Origin: Maribacter caenipelagi | GTDB taxonomy: Bacteria > Bacteroidota > Bacteroidia > Flavobacteriales > Flavobacteriaceae | Length of the DNA stretch: 64,000 nucleotides | Assembly (NCBI RefSeq): GCF_004364175.1 | Contig: NZ_SNZW01000016.1 | Coordinates: 281,133 to 345,132 of the forward strand | Direction of reading: 5' to 3' | Shown: positions 5,251 through 32,426 of the stretch, piece by piece | Layout: each line of letters begins with the position of its first letter | Position numbering within the stretch: position 1 is the first letter of the stretch | Notes under the pieces: model-generated | Databases searched by the model: none | What the model was told of the DNA's origin: nothing | The model's input: only the letters and a program-made list of their open reading frames with translations | Made by a program: the position numbers and the translations under genes

Positions 5251-5286
5251 CACCCGCATTCAGGGAATACCTGATGAGGCACTCAG

Positions 5287-5370
5287 GAGAAATGGCAGAG
5301 TGGTCGAATGCGGCAGTCTTGAAAACTGTTGAGGGTCACACCTCCGGGGGTTCGAATCCCTCTTTCTCCG
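5287..5370 (+). tRNA. tRNA-Ser (anticodon UGA)
   Basis: Acceptor strands GGAGAAA (5287-5293) and TTTCTCC (5363-5369) pair perfectly, with G73 at 5370. The anticodon loop CTTGAAA gives UGA, decoding UCA. The class II long variable arm and the T-arm GGTTCGAATCCC are present. CCA is not encoded (GCA follows). The last 13 bases including the following C (5359-5371) recur at 32414-32426, so this gene is the integration target of the 27 kb island. Confidence 0.97.
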
Positions 5371-5371
5371 C
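5359..5371 (+). other. attL core (3' end of tRNA-Ser)
   Basis: CCTCTTTCTCCGC is identical to 32414-32426 in the same orientation. The identity is partly preserved further upstream: GGTTC of the T-loop is also present at the other end, and 19 of 23 bases match. The island begins just downstream. Confidence 0.9.
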
Positions 5372-5406: not shown

Positions 5407-5413
5407 GTTTTTT

Positions 5414-5435
5414 AGGTGACAATTTAGGTGACAGT
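5414..5435. repeat. Island-end paired AGGTGACA repeat (left)
   Basis: Two AGGTGACA words lie 11 bp apart (starts 5414 and 5425). The whole 22-bp block recurs with one mismatch at 32274-32295 in the same orientation. The position near each att core suggests arm-type binding sites for the integrase; that role is inferred. Confidence 0.75.
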
Positions 5436-8400: not shown

Positions 8401-8713
8401 TATATGATTTTACTTTTTTCGGTAGTATTCTATAATCTATTTTATTGTATAAATTCTTCCAATATTCTATAAAATTCTCTTGGACATTTGAAGTTAGGGC
8501 TTGATGTAAATTATCTAACTTTTCTTGAAAATCTATCAATTCATAATTTAAAGCACCTGAAGCCCGTAGTCCGAGTTCTATACCTGTTTCAAATGATGCA
8601 ATTCTTGATTTAAGATATAAATCATGTGTGTCGTAATAAGCCATAGATTTTAATTTTCTATATGCTGTTTCTATATCGTTAATAGTTAAATCATTTTCTA
8701 ATATATTTATCAT
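5456..8713 (-). CDS. Reverse transcriptase-nitrilase fusion, DRT class 1 (UG1-like) antiphage protein
   Basis: The 1085-residue protein carries an RT domain with motif A FLNIDIKDYYYSI (Asp near 231), a PIGLASS motif 4-like stretch near 300, and the catalytic RYVDDIF motif near 330. A helical middle region follows. The last ~280 residues are a carbon-nitrogen hydrolase domain: Glu in VVLPELSLP near 851, a Lys in RVIPKPAP near 932, and Cys in NYYCFELAD near 953. This RT plus C-terminal nitrilase order is the known architecture of class 1 defence-associated RTs (Gao et al. 2020; UG1 group). All catalytic residues of both domains appear intact. It is the last island gene before attL, 125 bp after an unknown coiled-coil gene. 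No partner ncRNA is evident. Confidence 0.9.
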   Translation of the reverse strand: MINILENDLTINDIETAYRKLKSMAYYDTHDLYLKSRIASFETGIELGLRASGALNYELIDFQEKLDNLHQALTSNVQENFIEYWKNLYNKIDYRILPKKVKSYNDYNNKKRKNEEHLIESVFTNIREIEDEENYEFDKLTFFFEAPVEIHIVSILWIMKLGYHLETDLHEKCYGNRLILNKKKANSTENKVTDDSSLFKPYYNQYQKWRDEGISVAKSYLENKQDVLFLNIDIKDYYYSIRFNFNDLEKRLENKQLEDYSTLSDVFKKIHTVYTEKLKKTKYPNDFIKDVADNETVLPIGLASSYILANWYLKDFDSRVHQNIRPIYYSRYVDDIFIITANPDPKFDSEDNCKNAEIGFDEKFPDSYFENLTIEEKHIIKTLHPVITLENTPKELLRIDKTIGNKIFKIQCYKNLYIQPSKTLVYFFDHNSSLALLEKFKNEIEKRSSEFRFLPDEKLAENGFDDEAYELVFDDSLHKVKTLKDYKENRYGIASHLSKKIFYSLRNGKTDNKKDVKKILKFFKGTTNLEHFRQWERLLTYFVVNDNKEEFIEFSVNTFEQIFNLPMGTRFKRYNLNYTRIAVDLLEHYSIAMEMAIALNPTFYKPVEDRILKVFKRFYHDFNHSNTRPLKIFSNWQKYRLSNMLRHNYVNIPLLNYTKVNIETTLLETNFSKINMDEIDFSEILLKYSPRRVRFCEVAWMECIKRVHNTREVTPFQNRINNDSLYNEDEGNNQYLDESFEIYFKINYWYKLGDISFKECLKKEIFNYGEAFHISEETNNKKDWKLLGHEISVNQNEKLEKLKVGLANMKVESSNYESSMLGKPKLANRYLQFAKILNEAEAEKCDLVVLPELSLPHGLVKTVMEESWNHQRAIVSGIEHWTHNNVVFNFILTLLPCEIRGIKDTVPILRLKNHYAPSEEFWINEYRRVIPKPAPFRYHLLRWKGLYFTNYYCFELADIIHRSIFRSKIDFLIASEWNKDVNFYSNITETTSRDLHCYFIQVNTSDYGDSRVTRPKKTESRDSLRIKGGLNTTLLVDELDIKKLRAFQYKGFGLQRDDKEFKPTPADYKHEDARRRQENKSFRKN

Positions 8714-9714: not shown

Positions 9715-12684
9715 TTAATAATATTCTTTAATATAAGCATATGCTCTATCAAATAAAACTTGATCTTTAATCTTGTATTTCACCCATAGTATCTTCCTTA
9801 AAGAACTTTGAACTTCACGTTCTCCTTGATTAGATTGTTGCCAGCCAGGAAAGCTTACCATTCTTACGATGGTATCTATATCTAATACAATTCGTTCTAC
9901 TACGGCTGGAGTTTTATCTGTTTTAAGGTCTAAGAACAATTCTGTCAACGCCGCTTGGGGTGTTTTTTCTTGAATAAGTTCTTCCAATTCCTTTTCTGCT
10001 TGAACAGTTTCCTTAGCTAACTTGCAAAGTTCTTTCACAAATTCAATAGAGGTAATTAGTCCCTGTTCTGCTTTATCTCTTAATTCTTCAAGGCGATCAC
10101 TTAATTTTTTGAACTTAGGGTTTCCAGCGTGTTTCTTAAATCTTTTTGCTAAAATTTTTTCCAGTTTTTTAGCGTTTTTCGGGTCTGGATTATTGAATAT
10201 TTCTTCAATTACATCGGCATCTAGAACAAATTCATCTAATTGATGCACATCGCCTACATGAATATTTTCATGTATTAATTTAGTTGTTTGGGCTCCTAAT
10301 GAAAACCATAAAAATTTGCCCAAATTATCACCTGCCGGTTTTACAGATTCAAAAACTTGAGATAACCATTTGTAATCTTCATTGTAAATATCTAAAATCC
10401 TATCTGGGGATAATGATTCCCAAAGTTTTGATAGAAATTTATAATCTCTTGCAAATGCATCTTTTTTGACATCAGTGTTTATTGCATTTTGGGCAGCTTC
10501 AAGACCTTCAAAGCCACTTATTTTTCTGTTTACATCGATAAAATGACCTAAGGTGTCACGCATAGCTTGCGGTAACTTTTCTTTTAATTCAGATAGGTTT
10601 GATATTATTGTTTTTACACTTTCTTCATCAAATTGTAAAGCTTTTGCAGCATCATCAAAAACCCCAAAATAATCTACAATTCTACCGAAATATTTCTTCG
10701 GAAAAAGTCGATTGGTTCTACAAATTGCTTGTAGTAATGTGTGGTCTTTTATTGACTTATCCAAATACATGGTTTGTAATATTGGAGCATCAAAACCAGT
10801 TAATAATTTTGCTGTAACAATAATGAATTTTAAATCTGATTGCCTATCATTAAATTCATCCACCATTTTTTCTTGTTGGCTTTTGTCCATTCCCCACTTT
10901 TGCTTGAATTCTAAAGCGTCATTGGCAGAAGTTGAAATGACAACTCTACTAGCTTTTTCTGGAAAATAGTTATCTAATTCTTCTTTATATTGTACACAGG
11001 CATAGCGATCTGGGGTTACTATCATACCTTTAAAACCATGAGGATTTACCTTTTCATTAAAATGTAAGGCAATATCAGCTACAATTTTTGAAACACGTTC
11101 TGGAGATTTTAAAAAAGCAGCCATTTTTGCAGACTTTTTATTTAGTGCATCTGCTTCTTCATCTGTTAGAGCAGCACTTTCTTTAAACTCTTTAAATGCC
11201 TTGTCAATATTTTCTTTATCTACATGTACATCTACTAACCGAGGTTCAAAGTGGAGTGGAAGAGTAGCATCATCACGAATGGAATCTTGAAAGGTATAAC
11301 GTGACATATATCCTTCTTTATCTTCTTTTGAACCAAAAGCCCAAAAAGTATTCTTGTCTGCTTTATTTACTGGTGTTCCGGTAAGTCCAAAGAGGAAAGC
11401 ATTAGGAAGGGCTGCACGCATTTGTCTCCCTAAATCTCCTTCTTGTGTTCTGTGTGCTTCATCTACTAACACAATGATGTTTTCTCGTGCATTCATATTA
11501 GGTTTGGCATCCCTGAATTTGAAAATCATCGAGACTATAATTTTACGGGTATCCCGTTCTAACATCGTTTGTAATTCCTTAATGTTATCTGTGGTTTCAA
11601 CGTTTGCTATATCTGCTGCATTGAAAGTGCCGCTAATTTGAGTATCTAAATCGGTTCTATCGACTAGAATGATTACTGTTGGACTTTTTAATTCTGGAGT
11701 ACGCCTTAGTTTCTGTGCTGCAAAAACCATTAAGAAAGATTTTCCTGAACCTTGAAAATGCCAGATCAGCCCTTTTTTAATCTTACCTTCTTTTACGCGT
11801 TCTACTATTTTGTTAGCCCCTTCATATTGCTGAAAGCGGGGTATAATCTTAATTCTGCGTTTTTTCTTGTCTGTAGAGAATAAAGAAAAATTTTGTAGAA
11901 TATCTAGTAATCGTTCTGGACTTAATAAATCTGAAAGTTCTTTGCCAACTTCACCTAAGCCCAATCTTTTTGCTAAAGTATCATCATCGTTTTCTAATCT
12001 CCAAGGTGCCCAGAACTCTAACGGACAACGTATGGCTCCGTAATACAATTCTTTTCCTTCTGTGGCAAATGAAAGAATATTTGGCACAAATAATTGAGGT
12101 ACATTATCCTCATAGACATCGTGTATTTCATGAGCGCCATCTAACCAACTAACTGAAGGTCTAATTGGAGTTTTTGCTTCGCCGATAACAACAGGTATAC
12201 CATTTATCATCATTACGATATCGGGAATTTTGGTTTCACGATGACGAATACGATATTGGTTAGTTATTACATATTTGTTATTTGTTAAATCATCAAAATC
12301 TAATAATCTAACTGGTACATGTCGGTTGTTTTCCCCAAAAGGCATTGTTTTTTCACCTGTAAGCCACTTAAAGAACTCTTCGTTTGCTTTCACCAACCCT
12401 ACTTGGTTAACTGCTAATAGAACTGCTCTTAATTTATAGATGACTTCATCTGCTAAATCTGGATTAGCAGTAATCTCTGGATTAAGTCGAACTAATGCAG
12501 CTTTAAGTTCGTTTTCAACTAAAACTTCGTTGATACCCCTTTCTATTTCTGTAGAAGTTTGAAATTTCCAAGATGCTCCATATTTTATTTTGGTTTCATC
12601 AAGTCGATTTTCATTTAAATTAACTCCGCTAAGTTGGTGAATGATATAATGCTCTACGCTATTGAGTTCGTTAAATGCCATCAA
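9715..12684 (-). CDS. hsdR: Type I restriction endonuclease subunit R
   Basis: The 989-residue protein has the HsdR order. A PD-(D/E)xK nuclease comes first (RETKIPDIVMMINGIPVVIGEAK, near 150-170). An SF2 translocase follows, with Walker A HFQGSGKS near 313, DEAH (VLVDEAHRTQ) near 407, motif III FGLTGTP and motif VI-like AICRTNR. A helical C-terminus probably docks the methylase. It acts with HsdM and HsdS to cleave unmodified DNA after ATP-driven translocation. Unusually, it sits 10.4 kb from hsdS, downstream of the AbiE-like pair, whose second gene it overlaps by 14 bp (12671-12684). It may therefore be expressed from the promoter of that pair as well as from the hsdM side. Confidence 0.95.
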   Translation of the reverse strand: MMAFNELNSVEHYIIHQLSGVNLNENRLDETKIKYGASWKFQTSTEIERGINEVLVENELKAALVRLNPEITANPDLADEVIYKLRAVLLAVNQVGLVKANEEFFKWLTGEKTMPFGENNRHVPVRLLDFDDLTNNKYVITNQYRIRHRETKIPDIVMMINGIPVVIGEAKTPIRPSVSWLDGAHEIHDVYEDNVPQLFVPNILSFATEGKELYYGAIRCPLEFWAPWRLENDDDTLAKRLGLGEVGKELSDLLSPERLLDILQNFSLFSTDKKKRRIKIIPRFQQYEGANKIVERVKEGKIKKGLIWHFQGSGKSFLMVFAAQKLRRTPELKSPTVIILVDRTDLDTQISGTFNAADIANVETTDNIKELQTMLERDTRKIIVSMIFKFRDAKPNMNARENIIVLVDEAHRTQEGDLGRQMRAALPNAFLFGLTGTPVNKADKNTFWAFGSKEDKEGYMSRYTFQDSIRDDATLPLHFEPRLVDVHVDKENIDKAFKEFKESAALTDEEADALNKKSAKMAAFLKSPERVSKIVADIALHFNEKVNPHGFKGMIVTPDRYACVQYKEELDNYFPEKASRVVISTSANDALEFKQKWGMDKSQQEKMVDEFNDRQSDLKFIIVTAKLLTGFDAPILQTMYLDKSIKDHTLLQAICRTNRLFPKKYFGRIVDYFGVFDDAAKALQFDEESVKTIISNLSELKEKLPQAMRDTLGHFIDVNRKISGFEGLEAAQNAINTDVKKDAFARDYKFLSKLWESLSPDRILDIYNEDYKWLSQVFESVKPAGDNLGKFLWFSLGAQTTKLIHENIHVGDVHQLDEFVLDADVIEEIFNNPDPKNAKKLEKILAKRFKKHAGNPKFKKLSDRLEELRDKAEQGLITSIEFVKELCKLAKETVQAEKELEELIQEKTPQAALTELFLDLKTDKTPAVVERIVLDIDTIVRMVSFPGWQQSNQGEREVQSSLRKILWVKYKIKDQVLFDRAYAYIKEYY

Positions 12685-19865: not shown

Positions 19866-21149
19866 TTAATTTTCACCAACTTTAGTTTGAATACTAGGCA
19901 CGTAAAGACCTAAACTATAGAACCCGTTATATTTATTAATTGATACCTTTTGTTCTAAGTTTAATAAACCATAATGTTGATTTTCTTTATCTCTAATAGG
20001 ATATATGATTAGGCAGTCAATAATTTCATTTTTTTGCTTCCTTAGTTTTTCATAAACTTTATCCATTCTAGCATATCCTGCTAGTTGTCTAATATCTTCC
20101 TTATTATTTTTACCTCTTCCATATTTTGTTTTATACTTGGTGTCAATTACCATTTCTTCACCTTTAAGAGTCAATAAGAAATCTAACTCTTGATAATTTG
20201 ACTTGTATTGATAATGTATATCAATACCATACCTTTTTCGTAGAAAGGTAAATGCATATAACTCAAATAATAGAGGCATATTAATCCAAAATGGTTGTGT
20301 TTGAATTTTACTGGCTTCTATGGCCCTTACGTTATGCCCAAAACGTTTTAGAATTAGTTTTACAATATTAATTGCTTCCTTATAACTGCTAAAAAAAGGT
20401 GAGGTTTTAAAGTTTTGTAAGCTTGATATGTTTTTGGGAACTGTAACTTCTTCAAAAGCAGGCAGGCAAAATTGCAAAGCGTTTGATGCTAAAGCAGCAT
20501 ATTCCGGATAAGAGCTTAAATATTTTTGAACAAATAAAAGTCCAGCTTTTAATAATTGATTCTCAGGATGATTTAAACCAAATGTATCAAATGCGCATAT
20601 TGTTTTTAACGGCTCATTCTTATAAGTATATTTTTTAAGAGTTTGTGAAACTAACAGCTTCCCTTTTATACGAGCGTTTAAATGTTTCTCTTCGCGATAA
20701 TATGATTTCTTCAATCCTTTTTCTACTAATTGTTTTACTAAATTCAGAAATTGAATTACTAATAGAGGTGATAATAGGTCTAACGATTGATTGATTTCTA
20801 TAGGGTCATCTTGACTTTTAATTTCATAAATACTATTAATATGTTTGGATGCTACCGCATCATTTAAACAGGTTAACAGCATTTTTAAGTAATCAGTTTC
20901 AAAACCATCATTATTTAGTTTTGGTGAAATACAAATGGCACGATTACTAGTTTTGCATAACCAATCTACACCAATAAAATAATGAGAGGATACTACATTA
21001 TTGTAAATTGAAAAGCAGGGTTTATTTTGAGATTTATATTTTCCAAATTTTTGGTTTTTGAAATAGTATGTATTTAGAGTTTCACTATCAATGATAGCGC
21101 AAGTTCCTTTATGCTCTCCAATTGTTATTATTTCAGTTGTATTCGGCAT
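19866..21149 (-). CDS. mcrC: McrC, 5-methylcytosine restriction nuclease subunit
   Basis: The 427-residue protein shows the McrC pattern: a variable N-terminal beta-rich part, GVDWLCKTSNRAICISPKL, a central NARIKGKLL motif, and a C-terminal PD-(D/E)xK nuclease in ELDFLLTLKGEEMVIDTKYK (near 320-340). With McrB it forms a GTP-dependent complex that cleaves modified DNA. Its ATG follows the mcrB stop with no gap (TAAATG), implying coupled translation and a fixed McrB:McrC supply. Confidence 0.93.
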   Translation of the reverse strand: MPNTTEIITIGEHKGTCAIIDSETLNTYYFKNQKFGKYKSQNKPCFSIYNNVVSSHYFIGVDWLCKTSNRAICISPKLNNDGFETDYLKMLLTCLNDAVASKHINSIYEIKSQDDPIEINQSLDLLSPLLVIQFLNLVKQLVEKGLKKSYYREEKHLNARIKGKLLVSQTLKKYTYKNEPLKTICAFDTFGLNHPENQLLKAGLLFVQKYLSSYPEYAALASNALQFCLPAFEEVTVPKNISSLQNFKTSPFFSSYKEAINIVKLILKRFGHNVRAIEASKIQTQPFWINMPLLFELYAFTFLRKRYGIDIHYQYKSNYQELDFLLTLKGEEMVIDTKYKTKYGRGKNNKEDIRQLAGYARMDKVYEKLRKQKNEIIDCLIIYPIRDKENQHYGLLNLEQKVSINKYNGFYSLGLYVPSIQTKVGEN

Positions 21150-23060
21150 TTATAATTTCTCTATCTCTAATATTGCATCTTCAGTCAAAACCCCATCCTT
21201 TACATATTCTTTAAGAATAGGAACAACTTCAAATTTTATTTTAATCTCCAATTCTTCAATAGTATTTGCCATAAAATAACTATGACCTATTTGAACATCA
21301 TCTCTTTTAAATTCGGAAGACAAAAATTCCTTTTCAAATAAATTACTAACGCTCTGAAATTTGTCTTTGGCAAAATCAGGTACATACATTTCATTAGGTA
21401 ACACATCTATGAAAGAAAATCTACGTCTAATAGCATAGTCAATATGACCTACAGAACGGTCTGCAGTATTCATAGTGCCAATAATATATAGGTTGTTTGG
21501 TAGTTTAATTTTACGTTCACCTTCATATTCATATAATGAATTAATAGTTTTACCTCTATACTCGAGTGCATAAATTAACTCTCCTAAAACTGCGGGTAAA
21601 TTGGCTCTATTAATTTCATCAATGATTAATACAAATTTTGCTTTTGGATTATCTATAGCCTTTTCTGCAAATTTGGCTAGAATCTTATTCTTTACGGAAA
21701 ACATTGGTTGCTTATCTATTACTTCTGCAACTATACCTCTCACAAAATCTTCATAAGAGTAAGCAGGATGAAACTGAACCAATTCGAAAGCACCTTTTGT
21801 GACAACCTGATTTGCATCTAGTTTTTCACCTTCTTTTATATTGAAGTTTTCAAATAAAAACCGCATAAACTCATGAGGCTCTACATCTGTGTTAAACTCA
21901 ATATTCTTTTGTTGGTGTAATGCTAATAATCGTTGGTTAAGCTGAACAAAATTTAAATTTCCTAGTTCAATACTAAAAAGAGACAAGGCATTTTTTATAT
22001 AGTTTGCAGCGTTTATAGGGGCATACTCTTCTGGGTAGTATGTGTTTAAAATTTTTAAAATATAACTTTCACCAAAATATTTTTTTGCTTCATTATAATT
22101 TTTTGATTCAACAAGATTATATATAGCTTCTGCTATAGCTTTCATTGCCTCAGATTCATCTGTAATATCTTTTACGAAACCACTTTTTACGTATTCGTCT
22201 TTAGATTTTGACCAATATAAACGATAAGATAAAGAGCTGCCTGGAAAATAGTAACCAAGTATTTTTAAACCACGTTCAATCCACCAACAAAAATTATCAC
22301 GTTCTCCTGTACCAATACAATAGTTTTCTAATGATAATTCTTTCAGGTTTTCCTTAGGGAATTCATCTAAAAATTGCTCTCTTAATTTTTTTCGTTCAAT
22401 TCTGTAATTAACTACTTCTTTATTCTCACGATTAAAGTTTTTATAGAACTCATCCAACATTTCTTTTGGATTACTAAAAGTTTCAACTTCTGTTAGTTGT
22501 TTTGCAATAGCTTCTGCGGAATAAGTTTTCCCTGTACCCGGTGGTCCTTGTAATATAATCTGTTTTTTGTGTTCTAAAACGTTTATAATGTTTTCAATTT
22601 CCATTTGATTATTTTCTTTATTGCTAGAATTAACAATGAAATTATAAAGTGGGTGAATCTGGTTAATTTCTTTTATTTTTTGAACTGCAAATTTTGTAGA
22701 AATAGTTTTGACAGTTCCATATTTACCACCTGCCTCAGTAGCCTTGTCTATTCCGTAACGTGGTGTGCCATCAGTAAAGTCTTTATCATCTTTAAAAATC
22801 CATTCTTCAACAGATGCCCAGTGATTAAAACCATCTTCATTATTAATAAATCTGTTCTTTACTTTGCCATAAGCAACAAAATTTCGATGATATTTTAATA
22901 TCAAAATGTCTCCTGTGGAAATATCAAAGTAGCTTCCCTTTTGATTTGTATTTTCATGTAAAACAAAAGCCTTTTTTTCAATTATCCTTTTAAAGTTTTT
23001 CTCTATGTAATCTTCGTCAGGTTGACCAGCACTTACTACATGAAATTTTAAATGACTCAT
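21150..23060 (-). CDS. mcrB: McrB, GTP-dependent motor with EVE-like recognition domain
   Basis: The 636-residue protein starts with an EVE/ASCH-like domain (KFHVVSAGQPDEDYIEKNF, then STGDILILKYHRNFVAYGKV), a kind of modified-base reader found in several McrB proteins. The AAA+ GTPase follows: Walker A GPPGTGKTYSAEAI near 175, Walker B VLIIDEINRANLPAVLGEL, and the sensor region IIGTMNTADRSVGHID-YAIRRRF. The target modification cannot be read from sequence. It starts 2 bp before the hsdS stop, inside a type I R-M operon, so both systems are likely expressed together. Confidence 0.93.
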   Translation of the reverse strand: MSHLKFHVVSAGQPDEDYIEKNFKRIIEKKAFVLHENTNQKGSYFDISTGDILILKYHRNFVAYGKVKNRFINNEDGFNHWASVEEWIFKDDKDFTDGTPRYGIDKATEAGGKYGTVKTISTKFAVQKIKEINQIHPLYNFIVNSSNKENNQMEIENIINVLEHKKQIILQGPPGTGKTYSAEAIAKQLTEVETFSNPKEMLDEFYKNFNRENKEVVNYRIERKKLREQFLDEFPKENLKELSLENYCIGTGERDNFCWWIERGLKILGYYFPGSSLSYRLYWSKSKDEYVKSGFVKDITDESEAMKAIAEAIYNLVESKNYNEAKKYFGESYILKILNTYYPEEYAPINAANYIKNALSLFSIELGNLNFVQLNQRLLALHQQKNIEFNTDVEPHEFMRFLFENFNIKEGEKLDANQVVTKGAFELVQFHPAYSYEDFVRGIVAEVIDKQPMFSVKNKILAKFAEKAIDNPKAKFVLIIDEINRANLPAVLGELIYALEYRGKTINSLYEYEGERKIKLPNNLYIIGTMNTADRSVGHIDYAIRRRFSFIDVLPNEMYVPDFAKDKFQSVSNLFEKEFLSSEFKRDDVQIGHSYFMANTIEELEIKIKFEVVPILKEYVKDGVLTEDAILEIEKL

Positions 23061-23062
23061 AT

Positions 23063-24244
23063 TTAAAACAGCTGATTAATTAAACTTTTTTGTAGGGCTT
23101 TGGAACTTGAGATTTTTGATTTGACAATTTTTGTAGAATCATCAAGTTCTTCTAATTTTTCAGCTTCTTCTGAAATTAAATCTTTGTTTTTCGGTAAAGC
23201 AACTTTAAACTCTTCTACATCTGTAGGTGTAATTGCTGGATAGCTAGTTCCAGTCATTCTATCTTCACAATATCTAGTAAATTTTTTGGAAAAAAATTGA
23301 TGAAAAATAATTTTAGAATTAATATCATCAGAAACATTAATGACAGCTGTTCCTGTTGAAGCAATAATGTCCTTTCCTTCATCTATGTAAGCAAATGCTT
23401 GTTGGTAAGGTCTAACCATAGCTAGTATTATAGAATTATCATTTACAACTCTTTTTGCTCTACTTGGTGCATCAGAAAATTTCATTTTTTTTAGTTCACC
23501 AATAACTTTTGGCTCAATTATACCCGCTAAATCTAAATACCTAAATTCATAGTCTGGATTCGTGTTAGATTTCAGAGAACGAGCATTTATTTTAGCAATT
23601 TTATCAAGTCTTATATATTCCCAATTCTCTTTTTTCTTCGAGAACAAATTATCAACTAATGTAAAATATGCATGTTCTATTTTATTCAAAACCTCCTTCT
23701 CCCCCTCAATAACATCATCCATAGCCCAAAGTAATTCAGCAAGTTTGACTTGTTGGTCTTTTGGTGGTAGCAGAAATTCGTACTTAGCAATATCCTTCCA
23801 ATTTATATATGGATTTACAGAGCCTTTAGAGTTTTTAATTGAGTTTTCGGTAAAACCTTCCGACATCATAACAAATGGAAGTAATCGTTTGTCTATCTTT
23901 TCCTCATTAGCCTTAATGACTAATGTTGTATTAGAAGTTATTCCATCAAAATCTGCAATAGCAACCTTTCTTAAATATGTTCTTCGTGAACCATAAAGAA
24001 TATCTCCTTTTTCAAACTTTCGTATAAATGCAGGACCTAAATATTCATCTGTCAAATCTCCCCATTTTCTGATATGAAGGTCCTCCGAGCCCATGTGCTC
24101 ACCTTTAATATATCGTGTTAGCGTAGTATTATCACGATCTACTTTACCTTTTTCCTGAATAGCAACGTCACCAAACTTAGTTAGCTTCCACTTACTTTTA
24201 TCTAAACGAAGCTCTTCAATTGTATTTTCTATTATTTCACTCAT
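23063..24244 (-). CDS. hsdS: Type I restriction-modification specificity subunit S
   Basis: The 393-residue protein has two target-recognition halves. The central conserved helix is LPPKDQQVKLAELLWAMDDVIEG around residue 160-185, and a second helical repeat follows at the C-terminus (KSKISSSKALQKSLINQLF). The first half has the typical KGSVNPYINWKDI stretch and the second MTGTSYPAITPTDVEEFKVALP. Together they define a bipartite target, which I cannot predict. Its ATG directly follows the stop of the upstream hsdM (TAAATG). Confidence 0.93.
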   Translation of the reverse strand: MSEIIENTIEELRLDKSKWKLTKFGDVAIQEKGKVDRDNTTLTRYIKGEHMGSEDLHIRKWGDLTDEYLGPAFIRKFEKGDILYGSRRTYLRKVAIADFDGITSNTTLVIKANEEKIDKRLLPFVMMSEGFTENSIKNSKGSVNPYINWKDIAKYEFLLPPKDQQVKLAELLWAMDDVIEGEKEVLNKIEHAYFTLVDNLFSKKKENWEYIRLDKIAKINARSLKSNTNPDYEFRYLDLAGIIEPKVIGELKKMKFSDAPSRAKRVVNDNSIILAMVRPYQQAFAYIDEGKDIIASTGTAVINVSDDINSKIIFHQFFSKKFTRYCEDRMTGTSYPAITPTDVEEFKVALPKNKDLISEEAEKLEELDDSTKIVKSKISSSKALQKSLINQLF

Positions 24245-25702
24245 TTAGTTAAGGACTTCAAATAGGTTATTCATAGATTTTTTCAGTTTTTCCCCATCTT
24301 CATTCCATTTTTTAAATGCTTTAGGAAATGAAATTTCATTTTCTGAATTATCTCTCTTCACATAAAAATTGATATTCATATTACCATCAAACCCAAGAAT
24401 CTCTTCAGTTGTTGCAACTTTTGCATAATGAGGTATGTCTACAAAATCTTTATAAGTTTTATATATTTTATTAATATGATTTTCTTGGAGATAAGCCAAA
24501 CCTTTATTATCTATAACATCGTCTTTTCCGTTTACAAACAATATTTTGCCTTTTCTTTCTTTTGACTTATTAGTTTTACCGACGAGTATCATTGCCTCCA
24601 TTGGCGAATTATAAAACAAATTTGCCCCTATACCAATTACCGCTTCAATCTGATCTTCGGCAACCATTTTACGTCTCATTTCTGCTTCCATATCTCTAAA
24701 TAAAATTCCATGTGGCCAAAGAATAACAAAGCGACCGTTTTTCTTATCTAAACTTTTATGAATATGCTGCTGAAAAGCATAATCAGCACAACCTTGTGGT
24801 GGTGTGCCCCAAAGATTACGTCCATAGGGGTCGTTGACGAAACTTTTTCGATCCCATGCTTTTATACTGTATGGTGGATTAGCTAAGATTACATTGAAGG
24901 TTTTTAATTCGTCATTTTGTAAAAAAGCAGGGTTTGCCAATGTGTCGCCACGTACTATACTAAATTCTTCTATGCCGTGCATAAACATATTCATTCGGGC
25001 AATGGCACTGGTAATCAAATTTATTTCTTGACCATATAATTTTAAGGTTCTGTATTCCTTGCCTTCATCACGTAAATGCAGAGCACAGTTTAGTAACAAA
25101 CCTCCAGAACCACAGGTTGGGTCGTAAACAGATTCTCCCGATTGTGGGTCCATAATCATGGTCATTAGTTTTACTACGGTTCTATTAGTGTAAAACTCTG
25201 CTGCGGTATGTCCGGAATCATCTGCAAACTCTTTAATAAGGTACTCGTAAGCATTACCTAATTGATCGTCAGGTACGTTTTCTAAACTTAGTTTGTGTTG
25301 CGAGTAATGTTCAATTAAGTTCGTTAAGGTTTCATCACTTAACCTATTCTTGTTGGTCCAAGAAGCATCACCAAATATGCCGTACAAGGTTCCTGGGTTT
25401 GCCTTTTCAATGCTACGCATGGCATCTTGTATAGCAATACCAACGTTTGTTGTGGTTTCACGAACATCGTTCCAATGTGCACCATTTGGCACCAAGAAAT
25501 GGTGGTGTTCTGCAAAGGCAGCGTATTCTAAATCTCCATCGCCTTCTTTTAGAGCATTTTCAAACTCTTCGTCATAGACATCGCAAATACGCTTAAAAAA
25601 CATCAGCGGAAAGATGTACTGTTTGTAGTCTCCGGCATCTATTGTTCCGCGTAATTGCGTAGCAGCACCCCAAAGGTATTTTTCTAATTGCTGTTGGGTC
25701 AT
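24245..25702 (-). CDS. hsdM: Type I DNA methyltransferase subunit M (copy 1, adjacent to hsdS)
   Basis: The 485-residue protein has an HsdM N-terminal helical domain (EKYLWGAATQLRGTIDAGDYK), the SAM-binding motif I DPTCGSGGLLL, and the adenine N6-methylase motif IV NPPY (ILANPPYSI). It methylates adenine in the HsdS target. A second, diverged hsdM lies directly upstream, joined by TAAATG. Both copies look catalytically complete. The two may form an M1-M2-S complex with each M on one half-site, which is inference. Confidence 0.94.
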   Translation of the reverse strand: MTQQQLEKYLWGAATQLRGTIDAGDYKQYIFPLMFFKRICDVYDEEFENALKEGDGDLEYAAFAEHHHFLVPNGAHWNDVRETTTNVGIAIQDAMRSIEKANPGTLYGIFGDASWTNKNRLSDETLTNLIEHYSQHKLSLENVPDDQLGNAYEYLIKEFADDSGHTAAEFYTNRTVVKLMTMIMDPQSGESVYDPTCGSGGLLLNCALHLRDEGKEYRTLKLYGQEINLITSAIARMNMFMHGIEEFSIVRGDTLANPAFLQNDELKTFNVILANPPYSIKAWDRKSFVNDPYGRNLWGTPPQGCADYAFQQHIHKSLDKKNGRFVILWPHGILFRDMEAEMRRKMVAEDQIEAVIGIGANLFYNSPMEAMILVGKTNKSKERKGKILFVNGKDDVIDNKGLAYLQENHINKIYKTYKDFVDIPHYAKVATTEEILGFDGNMNINFYVKRDNSENEISFPKAFKKWNEDGEKLKKSMNNLFEVLN

Positions 25703-27184
25703 TTATATAAAATCTTTCAAAATTGTTTTAAATTTCTTTTCAGCTTTTAAGCTTTCATTCCAAGCAGTTTTTAAATCTGCCAAAGCCTCTTCAATAGAAG
25801 GCAAGTTGTCTTCAATGTTTTTTTCTACGTATAGAGGAATGTTTAAGTTGTATCCATTTTCTAACAAATCTTCTTTTGTGGCTACTTTAGCATAATTCTC
25901 AACATCTTTATAAGATATTAGCCAATTAAAAATTTGATCTATATGTGTAGATTCTAAATGATTCTGTGCCTTACCCACACGAATATGCTCTGAGGCATCT
26001 ATAAAAAGTACTTTGTCCTTTTTGGTTTCGTCTTTATTCTGTTTGAAAACCATAACGCAAGCCGCCAATTGAGTGCCATAGAAAATATTTGGTCCTAAAC
26101 CTATAACAGCCTCCAATATATCTTGCTCTAATAGTGCTTTTCTAATTTTTCCTTCTGCACCTTTTCTAAATAGAGCACCATGTGGTAATACTACGGTCAT
26201 GCGCCCGGTACTATTCATAGACTTAATCATATGTTGTACCCACGCCATATCTCCGTTGCCAGAAGGAGGAACACCTGCAATGTTTCTACCAAAAGGATCA
26301 TTAGCCCAATTTTCGGCTCCCCATTCTTTTAAAGAGAAAGGTGGGTTGGCTATAACACAATCAAAGGTTTTTAATCCGTCCGCTTCAAAAAAAGCAGGGT
26401 TGCGTAACGTATCTCCACGAACTATCTGAAAATCTTCAATACCATGAAGAAACATATTCATTCTGGCAATAGAACTAGAGGTCAGGTTTTTCTCTTGTCC
26501 ATAAAGCTTTAGGGTACGGTAATCCTCATTATTGTCTTTTAGGTGATCTACACATTCTAATAACATACCACCCGTACCACAAGCGGGATCATAAATGGTT
26601 TCTCCTTCATGTGGGTCTAAAATTAAACCTAGTAAATGCACTACAGACCTAGGAGTATAAAATTCTCCTGCCTTCTTATTGGTTAAATCTGCAAAGTGTT
26701 TAATTAGGTATTCATATGCATTACCTAACAAATCAGAATCAACTTTACTATTGCTTAAATTAAATTGTGAGAAGTGTTCTATGAGGTCTATAAGCAAATG
26801 GTCAGGCAGTTTGTTCTTGTTGCTCCATTGCGCATCACCAAAAATGCCATATAAGTATTCTTGATTATTCTGTTCAATACCGCGTAACGCTTTTTCTATT
26901 GCTAGACCTACATTCGTAGTTGTTTCCCTAATATCGTTCCAATGACAATGTTCAGGAATAATAAATCTGTGAAATTCAGGTAGATTGGCATAATCTTCAT
27001 CACCTTCAGATTCTTCAAGAGCTATTTTGTATTCTTCATCATAAACATCAGAAATACGCTTGAAAAATAGAAGAGGGAAAATATAAACTTTATAGTCAGA
27101 CGCATCTACAGGACCTTTTAAAATCCAAGCTGCTTTAGCTAAATATTGTTCTAATTGAAAAAGGGATAATTTTGTTTTGGTCAT
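25703..27184 (-). CDS. hsdM: Type I DNA methyltransferase subunit M (copy 2)
   Basis: I place the start at the ATG at 27182-27184 (MTKTKLSLFQLEQYLA), because it aligns with the start of the neighbouring hsdM; a longer TTG start at 27226 is possible. The protein has about 493 residues, with the same helical N-terminus, SAM motif DPACGTGGMLL and motif IV VIANPPFSL. The two M proteins are recognisably paralogous along their whole length but clearly diverged, so this is an old duplication. It is the first gene of the defence operon; the 1 kb upstream contains the G-rich array. Confidence 0.93.
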   Translation of the reverse strand: MTKTKLSLFQLEQYLAKAAWILKGPVDASDYKVYIFPLLFFKRISDVYDEEYKIALEESEGDEDYANLPEFHRFIIPEHCHWNDIRETTTNVGLAIEKALRGIEQNNQEYLYGIFGDAQWSNKNKLPDHLLIDLIEHFSQFNLSNSKVDSDLLGNAYEYLIKHFADLTNKKAGEFYTPRSVVHLLGLILDPHEGETIYDPACGTGGMLLECVDHLKDNNEDYRTLKLYGQEKNLTSSSIARMNMFLHGIEDFQIVRGDTLRNPAFFEADGLKTFDCVIANPPFSLKEWGAENWANDPFGRNIAGVPPSGNGDMAWVQHMIKSMNSTGRMTVVLPHGALFRKGAEGKIRKALLEQDILEAVIGLGPNIFYGTQLAACVMVFKQNKDETKKDKVLFIDASEHIRVGKAQNHLESTHIDQIFNWLISYKDVENYAKVATKEDLLENGYNLNIPLYVEKNIEDNLPSIEEALADLKTAWNESLKAEKKFKTILKDFI

Positions 27185-27627
27185 TGAATATGTAAGAAAT
27201 TCTTGTTGATGTGTAAAAATGTTCAATTTAAGGATTTGGCTTTGCTATTACATGCTTCATTGTATAAAAAAAATCTAATATTCTAAATATTTTACTATAG
27301 ATTATTGAAGTATGTCATAGCATATAAAAACCCTCTATTTATATTTATAGTTAACAATTACTAAAGTCTTAAAACATTTTCTATTTGATTTACGGATAAC
27401 CGTAATGCACTTAGATTATTTGTCAGTAATAGCTTAATCAGGTACTAGTCCTCTATAATAATATTCTAGCCAATTAAAAACATTGATATGAATGCTCAAG
27501 ATGTTAATCATTATTTGCTTAAAACGGTATTTAATAAATAAAATTGGTCGACCCTTACAATCAATATTCGCAAATAGCTTATTTGGTACGATTAAATTTA
27601 TTTCGATTGTTATTTATATTAAATATG

Positions 27628-27973
27628 AAAGGGTAGCACTTAGGGTAGGCTAGGGTTAGTGATGGTTGTATCAGGGTAGAATTTAGGGTAGGTAATGGTT
27701 ATTTTAGGGTAGAACTTAGGGTAGGCTAGGGTAGGTGATGGTTGTTTTAGGGTAGAACCTAGGGTAGGCTAGGGTAGGTGATGGTTATTTAAGGGTAGTA
27801 CATAGGGTAGGCTGGGGTTGGTGATGGTTGTTTTAGGGTAGAACTTAGGGTAGGTGATGGTTATTAAAGGGTAGTACATAGGGTAGGCTGGGGTAGGTGA
27901 TGGTTGTTTTAGGGGTGAACTTAGGGTAGGCAATGGTTTTCGAGCGTGAAAACTAGGGTAGGCTTTGATTGTT
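27628..27973. repeat. G-rich tandem repeat array (~43/33-bp units, about 9 copies)
   Basis: The units follow the pattern AGGGTAGAACTTAGGGTAGG, then an optional CTAGGGTAGG, then TGATGGTT and a T/A-rich tail. About nine units are present: long ones near 43 bp and short ones near 33 bp that lack the optional decamer, roughly alternating. The plus strand has many GGG tracts and very few C, so the array is strongly strand-asymmetric and could form G-quadruplexes. It differs from CRISPR because there are no unique spacers. Confidence 0.9.
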
Positions 27974-28105
27974 AGAAAGAAATTGTAAACATGTGTGTCA
28001 CGTACTTAATTATAATAATGTGAGTTTAAAGTTTAAGATTTTATTGTCGAATTGTTGAATAAGACAATGAGAGTAATGAGATAAGGAGTTTTTAGATAAA
28101 CTTTA

Positions 28106-28170
28106 AGTCAACAACTTGTCAACGCACAAATTATTAAAACGTGTTTTTGGTTGTTGATTCATTGTTGACT
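28106..28170. repeat. Inverted repeat AGTCAACAA / TTGTTGACT
   Basis: The perfect 9-bp arms (28106-28114 and 28162-28170) are 47 bp apart, in an AT-rich tract 65 bp downstream of the helicase stop. Extra GTTGTTGA-like words lie beside the right arm. It could be a protein-binding or origin site; this is inferred from position only. Confidence 0.5.
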
Positions 28171-28235
28171 AAAAGTTATGTTTTAAGTATTTGGCGTACA
28201 TAGTTTTAAGATTTAATTCAACACTGCGACAAGTA

Positions 28236-29453
28236 TTATTGTTGCATTTCTTCTAACTCTTTTTTCAGGAAGGTAAAATATCTACCTTTTGACTTATCTG
28301 CTACTACGATATATTCATTTTTGGTGTTCAGTATCAAACTGTATTTGTTATAAGAACCGTTCGTACTTGTAAGCCCGAATTTTGTTTTTAACGCATCTGA
28401 AATTTTAAAAGTAGATGTCCTTATATTATTTTTAGAGAGTTTGTCCACTAAATCACCAAGTGAATAACTTATCTCATCAACTTCATATCTAATAAAGTCA
28501 TCTAATACTATCTCTTGTATTTCTTTATCTAAATACGTTCTGTTTCCATTTACAAGTTTTTCTAGAGCAGCAGTGTGTATCTGTTGTTTTGTAAACCACA
28601 TTCTAGTTTTATTAGGGGAGGAAATTTTTCGCTTGTTTAGATGGTCGATAAAATGTGGCAACTCTAAACGAAGCTTATCCAAATATTTTGGGTCTCCATT
28701 AACCTGCGGTAGGGTGTGGACTTTAATCACCCAATATCTAATTTCTTTTTCATCAACTTGAATAAAATTTGTCTCATTATTAGAACATAATATGAATTTA
28801 CCGATGAAGAACGATTCTACCTTGTCTACACCTTTAGACTCTGTCTTGTAGCTAACTGCTGTTGATAGGTTTTTAATACGTTCACTGTCCTCTTTTTTGT
28901 CCAGGAGTACTTCATCTACTGCGACTATTGATTTAGACGCCCAATCAGCATTAAATCGACTTCTAAAGTCTTCATTTTTATTAATGGTCATATTACCTTG
29001 GAAAATGAGTTTTAGCCAATTGAGAAATGTTGTTTTACCGGTATGTCGCTCATCGCTAACAAGGCATAGAATGGGTAGTATTTGTGTGGGATGACGCCAT
29101 ATAATTGTCAAATAATCCAACCCTATTTCTAATTGATCTCCAAAAATATGTGTTAGAAAATTTATTGTCTCAGTGAAATCCCCCGGTTTAGGTTTTATGT
29201 CTATTTCCTCATACTGATTGTAAAAATTCTTAATTTCTTGCTGATAGTTTGTATGTGAAGGAATAAAACAAAAACCGTCATACTTTTTAATACTGCTCAA
29301 TGCATCTCTACCTTCGTCAGTAATGATTTCGGATTTTTTCCATTTTTTAATGGTTTTTAAACTATCACCACTAAATAATGGGATTTCAACTATTTTGTAA
29401 TATTCAGTGCCAATACGTATATATGTTGGCTTTTCTGTAATTTGCTTATTCAT
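28236..29453 (-). CDS. D5/SF3-type helicase (DUF5906-like primase-helicase)
   Basis: The 405-residue protein has a superfamily 3-like ATPase: Walker A ERHTGKTTFLNWL near 139, Walker B IVAVDEVLLDKKED, and a sensor-Asn stretch FILCSNNETNF. A C-terminal winged-helix-like region follows. Such proteins are replication helicases of satellites, plasmids and integrative elements. No primase motifs are visible in this chain. It overlaps the next upstream gene by 4 bp (ATGA), and lies beside the G-rich array, a possible origin. Its job is probably replication of the excised island; this is inference. Confidence 0.82.
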   Translation of the reverse strand: MNKQITEKPTYIRIGTEYYKIVEIPLFSGDSLKTIKKWKKSEIITDEGRDALSSIKKYDGFCFIPSHTNYQQEIKNFYNQYEEIDIKPKPGDFTETINFLTHIFGDQLEIGLDYLTIIWRHPTQILPILCLVSDERHTGKTTFLNWLKLIFQGNMTINKNEDFRSRFNADWASKSIVAVDEVLLDKKEDSERIKNLSTAVSYKTESKGVDKVESFFIGKFILCSNNETNFIQVDEKEIRYWVIKVHTLPQVNGDPKYLDKLRLELPHFIDHLNKRKISSPNKTRMWFTKQQIHTAALEKLVNGNRTYLDKEIQEIVLDDFIRYEVDEISYSLGDLVDKLSKNNIRTSTFKISDALKTKFGLTSTNGSYNKYSLILNTKNEYIVVADKSKGRYFTFLKKELEEMQQ

Positions 29454-29779
29454 AATTTTAAAAAATTTCTTTCTATTAATGCTCTTTTAGGTTTATCGGT
29501 GTCTACAAAATCTAAATTCAATTGAAATCCTGTCAAGCCATTGTCTAATCGAAATAACCTGTCCATTTCTTTTTGAATTTCCGACCATCCAAATCTTGGA
29601 TTAAATCTTACTAGTCCAATTATTATATCAAATCTTTTAAGACACCAGTCAAAGAATAGATTAGCTTCAACATCCAATGGGTATTTAGCTTTATTATATT
29701 CGATTTGACCGTTGATTTGTCTTAATTGGATTTCAATGTTTTCAATTGAAAAACCGTTCTGCTGGAAAAATGAATTCAT
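29450..29779 (-). CDS. Small hypothetical island protein
   Basis: The 109-residue protein is not recognised. It is mostly helical, with FFDWCLKRFDIIIGLVRFNPRFGW in the middle and a basic C-terminus (DKPKRALIERNFLKL). It overlaps the helicase gene downstream and the excisionase-like gene upstream by 4 bp each, so it belongs to the island's replication/recombination operon. It may be an accessory to the helicase. Confidence 0.65.
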   Translation of the reverse strand: MNSFFQQNGFSIENIEIQLRQINGQIEYNKAKYPLDVEANLFFDWCLKRFDIIIGLVRFNPRFGWSEIQKEMDRLFRLDNGLTGFQLNLDFVDTDKPKRALIERNFLKL

Positions 29780-30072
29780 AATCTCTTGTATTTAAGTGAT
29801 TTGATTTCGGTTAAGGATTTTTCAAGCTCAGAAGCATCAATAAGTACTCTTCTACCAATTTTGTCAGCTTTGATATAACCTTTCTGGATATAATTCCTGG
29901 TAGTTAATTCTGTGACATTGAGTTTTTGAGCAACCTCCTTGACGGTAAGTTTTTGTTTTGAAGGATTTACTTTGTTCATGATGAGCTCTCGTAATCCGTC
30001 TAATTTTTTACTAACGGACTTATCAATAATAAGCGTTAGTTCTTCCTGTGTTGTGATAATAAATTTGTGCAT
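29776..30072 (-). CDS. Excisionase-like HTH protein
   Basis: I choose the ATG at 30070-30072 (98 residues). The core is an HTH_17/MerR-like helix-turn-helix: TVKEVAQKLNVTELTTRNYI, then QKGYIKADKIGRRVLIDASELEKSL, the standard pattern of excisionase-family DNA-binding proteins. It lies close to the integrase and overlaps the next gene by 4 bp. It may direct excision or control the operon. Both roles are known for the family; which applies here is open. Confidence 0.82.
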   Translation of the reverse strand: MHKFIITTQEELTLIIDKSVSKKLDGLRELIMNKVNPSKQKLTVKEVAQKLNVTELTTRNYIQKGYIKADKIGRRVLIDASELEKSLTEIKSLKYKRL

Positions 30073-30262
30073 AAATCTTATATGTTTAAAGTTCATACAA
30101 AGAATGCAAGACCACGTCGGAGGATAAAACGGGTAAAAGTTAAATTTTAAGCTAACATAAATTACTGGTAATAAGAGCTTTAGATGTGATATGAAGTGAT
30201 TTTAGGAAGATTCGATGGGTAAAAAGTGGGTATTTCTAAAATATCCTATTAAAATTTCTGAT

Positions 30263-31000
30263 TTAATGATGCCGCTTAGCGATATCTAAAGCTATTTGAT
30301 TAATTTCCTCAAGCTTCAAATTAGTTGGAATATCACTTTTTTTATAGCCACATATACGTTTTGTTAAGAAATTATCATCTAATACTTTTCCATTAAGTAA
30401 GAATTTTCTTTTAATAATAGCGATATATCTCTTGACGGTATTATTAAATTCACTTAAGAAGAATGGTTTAATTGTATAAAATAGATAACCTAAATCTTGC
30501 TTAGAGAGTACACCTGTATTTAAATTTATGACTTCTGTATTCCCATAGTTCATAAGATTAGTAAAATGACTCCAATTAATATTAAGACAATTCATTTTTT
30601 GTAAGTAATCGAAAAATACTTTTAGAGAAGGATAATTGTCTCCCCATAGTAACTTGTCAAATTGATTTACATATACATAGTCTACTTCACGCACCAAAGT
30701 TTCATATTGCTTTTTATGAAAATCACTATCTTTTAAGGTGTCTTTAAGTTTGCGAATAATAGATAAAACTTCTTCTACGTTTGTCGCCTTAACTTCGTCT
30801 TTTATAATTTCAATTTGTACTCTTAGTTTACCATTTTCGATAAAAATTTCATTGTACTTATTTTGTTTTAATTCAATTTTTTCTAGTAATTCCTCATTTA
30901 TTTTATTTTGTCCTTCTATATCAATTTTAAGCATTGTATTCTCAAGGATTATTTTAGCGATGTTGGTTAAATCATCTATTTTTTTTTGTTCGTTATCCAT
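30263..31000 (-). CDS. Hypothetical coiled-coil island protein next to integrase
   Basis: The 245-residue protein begins with ~100 residues of charged coiled coil (NEQKKIDDLTNIAKIILENT; VEEVLSIIRKLKDTL), then a helical domain with DYVYVNQFDKLLWGDNYPSL and a basic C-terminus. No family is recognised. It starts 8 bp after the integrase stop and is probably cotranscribed with it. A role in recombination or element maintenance is a guess from position. Confidence 0.65.
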   Translation of the reverse strand: MDNEQKKIDDLTNIAKIILENTMLKIDIEGQNKINEELLEKIELKQNKYNEIFIENGKLRVQIEIIKDEVKATNVEEVLSIIRKLKDTLKDSDFHKKQYETLVREVDYVYVNQFDKLLWGDNYPSLKVFFDYLQKMNCLNINWSHFTNLMNYGNTEVINLNTGVLSKQDLGYLFYTIKPFFLSEFNNTVKRYIAIIKRKFLLNGKVLDDNFLTKRICGYKKSDIPTNLKLEEINQIALDIAKRHH

Positions 31001-31008
31001 TATTTATT

Positions 31009-32262
31009 TTAGTTATTCCAAACAGAAGACATAAAATCATTTTTATCTTCCTCGTTAGGTTTGTAGTATTTATTAAAAATTTCTAGGCTCTTATGCCCTG
31101 TAAATTCCATAATAATTTTATCAGGAATTTTTTTGTTTTTCATAATAGTAATAAAACTTCTTCGTGCTGTGTGGCTAGATATCCTGTCGCAGAACATTAT
31201 GTCTTCCTCAATTATTTTATTGCCAATTTTTGTAGTTTTCTTTATTTCTTCTTTATATGAGTCATCTACATCCCCAATTGCTTCTTTGATGTAAACATTA
31301 AATTTTTGACTTGAAATTACAGGAAGTTGATAGTTATACTTTTCAAGTATAGCTTTTGATATTTTGTTTAGCGGGATTTTTAATTGTTTATTTTGGTCTT
31401 TGTTATCTATAACTGAGATACAATTATCAATTATATCCTTAGCTCTTACTTTTGAATAGTTACCGTATCTCATTCCTGTAGAACATCCAAACACAAATAA
31501 ATCTCTTACTTTTTCTAATTTTTTATTCTTGGAAAAGTCTTTCTCATAAATCTGATTAACCTGGTCCATTGTTAATGCTACTTCATCCGTGACAAAAGCA
31601 GTTGGCGTTTTGAAACTTTTAAATGATATATTATGGGTGTAGGCATTCTCTAAAGCCCAGTTTAAAAAAGTTTTTAATAAACCTACATTTCTTCTAAGTG
31701 TGTTAGAGGAATGATTTTTAACCGTAATACAATAGTCTAGGAATAAATTATACGTATTACTGTCAAACTTATTTAAGTTTAAATTTCTCTTAGTGTGGGC
31801 TTGAAAGGTTATTAGCAAATCCTTATTGTATTCATATCTTTTAATAGTACTAGAAGTATTTGCGTCACCTGATTTATCACTCTTCTTAGATTCTAAGAAA
31901 ATTTCATAGACTTCGAAAAATCTATTTGATTTAGGCTTAGTCTTCTTAAAGTATTTGTCAAAATGATTTCTAGTGGTTTCTATATCTAAAGGCTCGTTAA
32001 TATTCTTGTATCTGCCAACGAGGTCTAAAAAGTAACTAGAGTATCTGTCTAATTGTTGTTTTATAGTTCTATGTTTTTCAGCTTCGCTAGACCTTCCTGT
32101 GGTGTTATTTGGAATTCTTAACTTGAAGTCCCATTCTTTTGGGTTAATCTTTTCACCAGTAGAATAAACAAATTTTCTTCCCTCATCTTTGAAATAAGTG
32201 GAAAAGAAAATTGGGGTGTCACTTGATGATTTCGAATTTTTAAGATTAAATGTATATCTCAT
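31009..32262 (-). CDS. Tyrosine recombinase (island integrase)
   Basis: The 417-residue protein has a SAM-like N-terminal core-binding domain and the C-terminal catalytic domain. Arg is in STGMRYGNYSKV near 264, the HxxR box is HTARRSFITIM near 365, then GHKSLEIFNKYY with the nucleophile Tyr near 397. This is the Bacteroidota phage/ICE integrase type. It lies directly inside attR, and its start is 11 bp from the paired AGGTGACA repeat. It almost certainly catalysed insertion into tRNA-Ser. Confidence 0.95.
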   Translation of the reverse strand: MRYTFNLKNSKSSSDTPIFFSTYFKDEGRKFVYSTGEKINPKEWDFKLRIPNNTTGRSSEAEKHRTIKQQLDRYSSYFLDLVGRYKNINEPLDIETTRNHFDKYFKKTKPKSNRFFEVYEIFLESKKSDKSGDANTSSTIKRYEYNKDLLITFQAHTKRNLNLNKFDSNTYNLFLDYCITVKNHSSNTLRRNVGLLKTFLNWALENAYTHNISFKSFKTPTAFVTDEVALTMDQVNQIYEKDFSKNKKLEKVRDLFVFGCSTGMRYGNYSKVRAKDIIDNCISVIDNKDQNKQLKIPLNKISKAILEKYNYQLPVISSQKFNVYIKEAIGDVDDSYKEEIKKTTKIGNKIIEEDIMFCDRISSHTARRSFITIMKNKKIPDKIIMEFTGHKSLEIFNKYYKPNEEDKNDFMSSVWNN

Positions 32263-32273
32263 ATTACGTTATT

Positions 32274-32295
32274 AGGTGACATTTTAGGTGACAGT
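32274..32295. repeat. Island-end paired AGGTGACA repeat (right)
   Basis: The same 22-bp block as at 5414-5435, one base different and in the same orientation. It sits between the integrase start and attR, where it could serve as integrase arm sites and as a site for autoregulation of the integrase gene. Confidence 0.75.
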
Positions 32296-32413: not shown

Positions 32414-32426
32414 CCTCTTTCTCCGC
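32414..32426 (+). other. attR core
   Basis: CCTCTTTCTCCGC repeats the tRNA-Ser 3' end at 5359-5371. The preceding bases GGTTCAATAA partly copy the T-arm. The terminator that follows fits a former tRNA downstream region. Confidence 0.88.

Follow-up and report, generated by a model that had tools for sequence, protein, structure and literature searches.

Known elements and the island

In Bacteroidota, integrative and mobilizable elements of the NBU type carry an integrase, an HTH protein and a DUF5906 helicase; in plasmid pBUN1, the helicase, a toprim gene and a MobV relaxase gene stand in a row. The iteron origins of SaPI, P4 and iteron plasmids consist of clustered short half-sites beside a helicase gene, and bacterial minisatellites are tandem units that differ in copy number and decay. 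In the consulted sections of the source, the search model for PICMI elements wants an integrase, AlpA (with PF12728 among its profiles), a DUF3987/DUF5906 primase and Fis (PMC10803314). The origin of the PLE satellite of Vibrio cholerae is presented, in the sections consulted, as a non-coding region with several repeat types, one of which is an iteron and another dispensable for replication (PMC7145576).

The window, i.e., the whole 64 kb stretch of DNA that was analysed, holds an island integrated at tRNA-Ser. Its size is put at ~27 kb because the 3' end of the tRNA gene recurs at 32414-32426 and because the integrase end of the related element in genome G011 carries the identical att core and, after it, the terminator of the tRNA gene. 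The main features of the island are as follows.

5359-5371, + strand: att core CCTCTTTCTCCGC, 13 bases, the 3' end of tRNA-Ser(tga) (5286-5371)
19866-27226, - strand: start of the defence cargo, with two N6 methylases, a specificity subunit, an AAA (McrB-like) ATPase and a McrC-like protein
27227-27628: AT-rich spacer from the array to the first cargo gene
27965-28045: spacer from the array to the half-site block
28236-29453, - strand: DUF5906/VapE-like ATPase of helicase type, 405 aa (Pfam PF19263)
29450-29779, - strand: 109-aa core protein, no family found
29776-30096, - strand: HTH_17/excisionase-family protein (PF12728)
30263-31000, - strand: 245-aa core protein, no family found
31009-32262, - strand: tyrosine integrase (PF00589)
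32414-32426, + strand: second att core copy at the integrase end, a repeat of the tRNA-Ser 3' end

Like NBU-type elements, the island has an integrase, an HTH protein and a DUF5906 helicase, with direct repeats at its ends. Unlike in most of their distant relatives, no primase gene was found within 28 kb behind the helicase. A Pfam scan of island proteins, a general one outside which some small ORFs fell, detected no relaxase. It resembles iteron origins in having clustered half-sites beside the helicase gene, but the array that is our subject is not itself the recurrent half-site set. The array is like bacterial minisatellites in its tandem units, difference in copy number and decay, and unlike them in that arrays of mostly unrelated sequence recur beside one type of probable origin. 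Set against the PICMI model in the consulted sections of its source, the window shares PF00589, PF12728 and PF19263, but no Fis domain was reported among the core proteins, and neither phage genes nor a packaging site nor a helper phage could be identified for the island (PMC10803314). As in the PLE origin, a non-coding region holds several repeat types; the PLE origin differs, as far as the consulted sections describe it, in its RepA_N initiator and unrelated repeats (PMC7145576). No account of the half-site layout or of the array turned up in the literature searched, in which subscription journals were thinly covered and which included the consulted sections of PMC7145576, PMC5704250 and PMC10803314.

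No viral relative of the helicase was confirmed among viral contigs, and among phage sequences a single phage (two records) had a stretch of 23% identity; no solved structure matched the helicase by sequence. Leftwards from 27226 the cargo is largely defence-like and also includes HsdR, AbiEii, GIY-YIG and reverse transcriptase genes. The two type I methylase genes (24245-27226) are adjacent, each with HsdM_N and N6_Mtase domains, and are accompanied by one specificity gene; the McrB- and McrC-like genes come next, and HsdR is distant, at 9715-12684. A 1085-aa reverse transcriptase that is weakly Drt3a-like (56.8 bits; cut-off 200) is encoded at 5456-8713, on the tRNA side of the island. Repeats of TTTAGGTGACA lie inside both island ends, at 5411-5433 and 32283-32295, and are possibly integrase arm sites.

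A G-rich tandem array behind the helicase gene

The array was delimited by TRF and by reading, and the borders of its units were set by eye.

27629-27964, + strand: G-rich, C-poor tandem array, 336 bases, nine units
27630-27672, 27673-27705, 27706-27748, + strand: units U1 to U3
27749-27791, 27792-27834, 27835-27867, + strand: units U4 to U6
27868-27910, 27911-27942, 27943-27976, + strand: units U7 to U9, U9 being degenerate

The sequence-only reading had described about nine units of ~43 or ~33 bp, and both the unit reading and the TRF scores (391-494, against at most 72 in 200 dinucleotide-preserving shuffles) agree with it. That reading also had the two lengths roughly alternating. Both lengths are present, a long unit being a short one plus an extra decamer, but by-eye lengths of 43, 33, 43, 43, 43, 33, 43, 32 and 34 bases give an order without strict alternation. 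U5 and U7 are 98% identical, and TRF reports a further period of 162 bp (1.9 copies, score 494). The strand asymmetry claimed at the outset is clear from the base counts, A78 C20 G134 T104 over the 336 bases and A80 C20 G136 T110 over the 346 bases of 27628-27973. A coding function was considered and rejected, since no open reading frame runs through the array and every frame is interrupted by 2 to 18 stops. Searched against its own genome, the array gave itself as the single significant match, the next best having E=0.23.

One proposal made from the letters alone was a G-quadruplex. Folded by the G-rich strand, such structures would act on replication or transcription. A G2 motif does match the array twelve times, and the local G4Hunter maximum is 1.52. 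However, a motif search, which covered this strand only, found no instance of four G3 runs with loops of up to 12, and same-strand G4Hunter means of arrays in related elements (described below) are 0.69 in G011, 0.10 to 0.49 in five others and -0.30 in G142. We regard a quadruplex role as barely credible.

A separate block of paired half-sites

Between the array and the helicase stop lies a second, distinct repeat structure, the only half-site cluster of its kind found in the 64 kb window. Its words were read on the - strand.

28046-28230, words read on - strand: half-site block, probable replication origin
28226-28230 and 28218-28222, - strand: outer pair GTTGC/GTTGA, 8 bp spacing, one degenerate word
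28164-28168 and 28153-28157, - strand: inner pair, TCAAC twice, 11 bp spacing
28119-28123 and 28108-28112, - strand: inner pair, GTTGA twice, 11 bp spacing
28054-28058 and 28046-28050, - strand: outer pair TCAAC/TCGAC, 8 bp spacing, one degenerate word

The block was compared with a close set of 24 helicase loci (window included; about 52 to 100% identity), with 32 more distant loci and with four plasmid records of Bacteroides and Phocaeicola. L372, in which our script found no helicase ORF, and L031-L034, L039 and L040, which are partial, broken or weak matches, were left out, and helicase matches without an assigned locus stand outside the half-site and array counts. Behind the helicase stop of close loci the pairs alternate in direction: forward at the stop, reverse at about +50 to +80, forward again at about +80 to +125 and reverse again at about +130 to +210. 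Neighbouring words of the same direction in the 24 loci are most often 11 bp apart (27 cases), then 8 bp (11 cases). GTTGA/TCAAC density averages 5.1 per 260 bp in these loci, compared with 0.53 in 400 kb of control sequence, where 0.4% of blocks have at least four sites. The inner layout in exact words occurs in 10 of 24 close loci (window included) and in 23 of the 32 distant ones; two of the four plasmid records have it as well, and none of the control blocks, 1040 in all, shows it. The corresponding counts for all four pairs in order are 3/24, 17/32, 2/4 and 0/1040. In the distant loci the word is GATGA/TCATC, with the exception of L369, which has GTTGA; pairs are present in another order in L023, L025, L028, L365 and L367.

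Conservation within the close set is uneven. Fourteen of its 24 loci, including that of G011, do not have the exact inner layout, six have at most three exact words, and no exact pair whatever occurs in G366, G164, G363 or G479a. Given this degeneracy across much of the close clade, the assignment of the block as an origin rests on the distant clade too. Its layout, its recurrence and its place beside the helicase gene nonetheless suggest that the block is probably a replication origin.

The paired layout was seen behind DUF5906 helicases of Bacteroidota in the window and in loci L017-L030, L359-L371 and L435-L437. Among the plasmid records, L436 and L437 have the full layout, L435 has partial pairs and L434 has only loosely spaced GTTGA/TCAAC words. 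L434, 'plasmid 55' of Bacteroides finegoldii (15.9 kb), is a closed-circle record with an integrase and a 43%-identical helicase homolog; no primase matched in it, and it would fit an excised circular form or a plasmid.

A CHC2/Toprim-type primase gene stands next to the helicase in 31 of the 32 distant, mainly GATGA-type loci, and was found behind the helicase in none of the 24 GTTGA-type close loci, in seven of which the search reached only 0.7-1.5 kb; five primases, four of which came from distant loci, went into the search profile. By its word, GTTGA or GATGA, the half-site layout roughly tracks the presence of a primase gene.

The array had been suggested to be an iteron-like origin. That it lies beside the island helicase, as the same reading held, is correct, and it appears to adjoin a probable origin as well. 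The array as such is probably not the origin, the half-site block being separate and the related word GTTG/CAAC occurring five times in the array against 3.3 in shuffles, which is not an enrichment. A repeat conserved together with its initiator among relatives, as expected of an iteron, is not seen in the array; the half-site block comes closer to this expectation.

Arrays beside the block in related loci

A TRF search (score at least 50, 700 bp behind the helicase) detected repeats in nine of the 24 close loci, compared with two of 152 control stretches behind long ORFs (p=1.7e-7). Eight are arrays (G000, which is the window's genome, G011, G060, G366, G474a, G142, G135 and G184; p=1.4e-6 for these alone), and the ninth match, in G630, is the half-sites themselves. 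Without G000, G011 and the G630 match the count is 6/22 (p=5e-5). These p values are optimistic because the loci are related; by lineages, as we grouped them, the counts are 6/17 against 1/35 control intergenic regions (p=0.003), or 5/16 without the seed lineage (p=0.009). The G135 array sits in a mechanical ORF, so that the intergenic test missed it and it was counted by TRF instead. At this threshold 16 of 24 close loci and all 32 distant loci have no array, the seven TRF matches in distant loci all being 11-bp half-sites.

The arrays are mostly unrelated in sequence between elements. Their units are built on CCCTACC in G000 and G011, an irregular CAACA in G060, GTTGGTTAAG in G142, GCCAAC/TTGCC words in G184 and, in G135, the 12-mer ACCACACTTAGC (~35 copies, 100% matches, L383, ~214-629 bp behind the helicase stop). 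Those of G366 and G474a are CAA runs located inside the half-site block rather than behind it; the length of the run differs at one site between G366, G164 and G479a. In loci L376, L377, L409 and L410 a CAA run likewise lies in the half-site region, with a length that varies among the close elements G366, G164, G479 and G474. By TRF units and reading, an array like that of the window occurs in one of the 23 other close loci, that of G011. A look for the array next to related helicases, as the sequence-only reading had proposed, gives a similar array in G011; the other arrays are mostly of unrelated sequence.

The main rival to the reading that we favour below is that the array is an accessory replication site, like the extra repeats beside satellite origins, bound by a protein of the island or of the host through phased G-tracts and setting copy number or aiding strand opening. 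Consistent with this possibility are its place beside the probable origin, the periods of ~10-12 bp in most arrays (CAA runs excepted) and GTTG/CAAC counts above dinucleotide shuffles in five of the eight arrays (G060, G366, G474a, G142 and G184), although this is trivial for the two CAA runs. On the other hand, GTTG/CAAC is at shuffle level in G000 (0.22 of shuffles reach the count), G011 (0.13) and G135 (1.0), array sequence is not conserved, an array is missing at threshold from the loci counted above, and the array evolves faster than the half-site block. An accessory site is thus a possibility to be taken seriously, though we doubt it.

In a further reading, elements without a primase gene behind the helicase would keep low-structure, strand-asymmetric and often helically phased repeats next to the origin, as a single-strand platform for the loading of host primase or of the helicase. 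Selection would then act on composition and phasing, not on sequence, and array sequence would be free to change. Six of the eight arrays are C-rich on the helicase strand, G142 being the reverse and G184 nearly neutral. Against this view, a primase gene follows so closely in 31 of 32 distant loci that little room is left there for an array, and most close loci have none. We consider the platform unlikely.

Array relatives away from the helicase

Three close GGGTAG(G) words were found in 4 of 36 genomes of the genus, namely G000, G011, G004 and, at two places, G013; a reversed control pattern matched 1 of 36 (G010). Alignment with the window array gave 82 bits for the G004 array (at most 34 in 200 shuffles) and 35.6 bits for the two G013 arrays (shuffles at most 32 and 27). 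A search of G004 for a helicase homolog found none, and in G013 the arrays and the two helicase matches lie on different contigs. The fetched stretches around the G004 and G013 arrays yielded no half-site cluster, by a test that is not sensitive because it also missed the block in G011. The sequence-only reading had named the same array scattered in the chromosome, away from such helicases, as the observation that would tell against it, and G004 and the two places in G013 largely supply that observation.

In a family-wide scan (397 genomes, three of them of this genus) a stricter pattern matched only in G000 and its reversed control in 13 genomes, so that words of such composition are not rare as such. 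Wider scans of genome and viral contigs for GGGTAGG triplets gave, among the matches listed, mostly unrelated simple repeats. Also among the matches listed were irregular GGTAGGC-rich arrays of similar vocabulary at several places in uncultured Prevotella RUG541 (L104, L105, L146). The G004 array and one G013 array are near other defence genes, which may be chance because the arrays are so few.

A XerC-like recombinase gene beside a G013 array was considered as a partner and dropped, since the recombinase occurs in 27 of 36 genomes (E<=1e-60) and the array pattern in 4 of 36. This recombinase (L318 2663-4030 and G000:C2:6174-7316) is in several cases near a contig end in the genus and once has three 451-bp repeats behind it; the locus is possibly integron-like or otherwise repeat-generating.

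Divergence between the window and G011

Relative to the window, the core of the G011 element is 97% identical in the helicase and 96% in the integrase, but only 63-64% in the 245-aa and HTH proteins. As in minisatellites, units of 10-100 bp stand head to tail and copy number varies, with nine units in the window and 4.5 TRF units in G011, these being different elements. Divergence between the two is 28/213 (0.131) in the half-site block, 13/55 (0.236) in the spacer, 84/336 (0.250) in the array and 42/128 (0.328) at fourfold sites of the helicase gene. In this one pair of elements, divergence in the array is about double that of the block and a little below that of fourfold sites, the array figure being lowered by the choice of best-matching units; because it is below the fourfold rate, weak constraint on the array is possible.

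Homology between the two elements ends within the array, beyond which the cargo differs: the genes facing the G011 array encode a DUF4407 protein and others that have no assigned family. This bears on the suggestion that the array controls the defence operon as a binding or leader array. The near end of the window array is indeed only ~0.4 kb upstream of the first methylase start (27629 and 27226, respectively), but G011 keeps an array beside different cargo, and no exact Bacteroidota-type promoter was found in the spacer 27227-27628, only cores with one mismatch to the consensus. Operon control is accordingly very unlikely.

The same breakpoint could mean that the array is a recombination junction, where one cargo replaces another while the replication core stays constant. 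The G004 array, which lies between two genes in a neighbourhood not found in the fetched flanks of the 18 other genomes that have the downstream gene, would fit such a role. However, arrays cannot serve exchange between most elements because they share no sequence, G366, G164 and G479a are homologous on both sides of the variable run, and any spacer before the cargo would give the same break. A junction role therefore seems improbable.

Interpretation

On balance, and with somewhat better than even confidence, we regard the array as a replication-linked minisatellite, strand-asymmetric and with a fast turnover, which occupies the spacer that separates the probable origin from the exchangeable cargo in the tRNA-Ser-integrated island. 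What can be read directly from the DNA in its favour is the position, the separate block, the mostly unrelated arrays near the block, the difference in copy number and a divergence above that of the block. On this view, the half-site block would be an origin that fires upon island excision, with the helicase acting at the block; next to the origin, slippage or unequal recombination may add and remove array units, which would then decay. Counting against the minisatellite reading are the degeneracy of the block in the close clade and the close loci without an array, and the C-richness and ~10-12 bp periods of the arrays could be selected. Most likely, the island tolerates the array, or the array has an accessory role at most; it would be neither the set that binds the initiator nor a G-quadruplex device, nor would it serve the defence operon as a promoter array.

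Although probably a by-product, the array points to where a large family of integrative elements in Bacteroidota probably has its origin, and the recurrent half-site layout is a larger yield than the array itself. Since different genera and families share this layout but vary its word, GTTGA or GATGA, initiator specificity would be testable with small clones.
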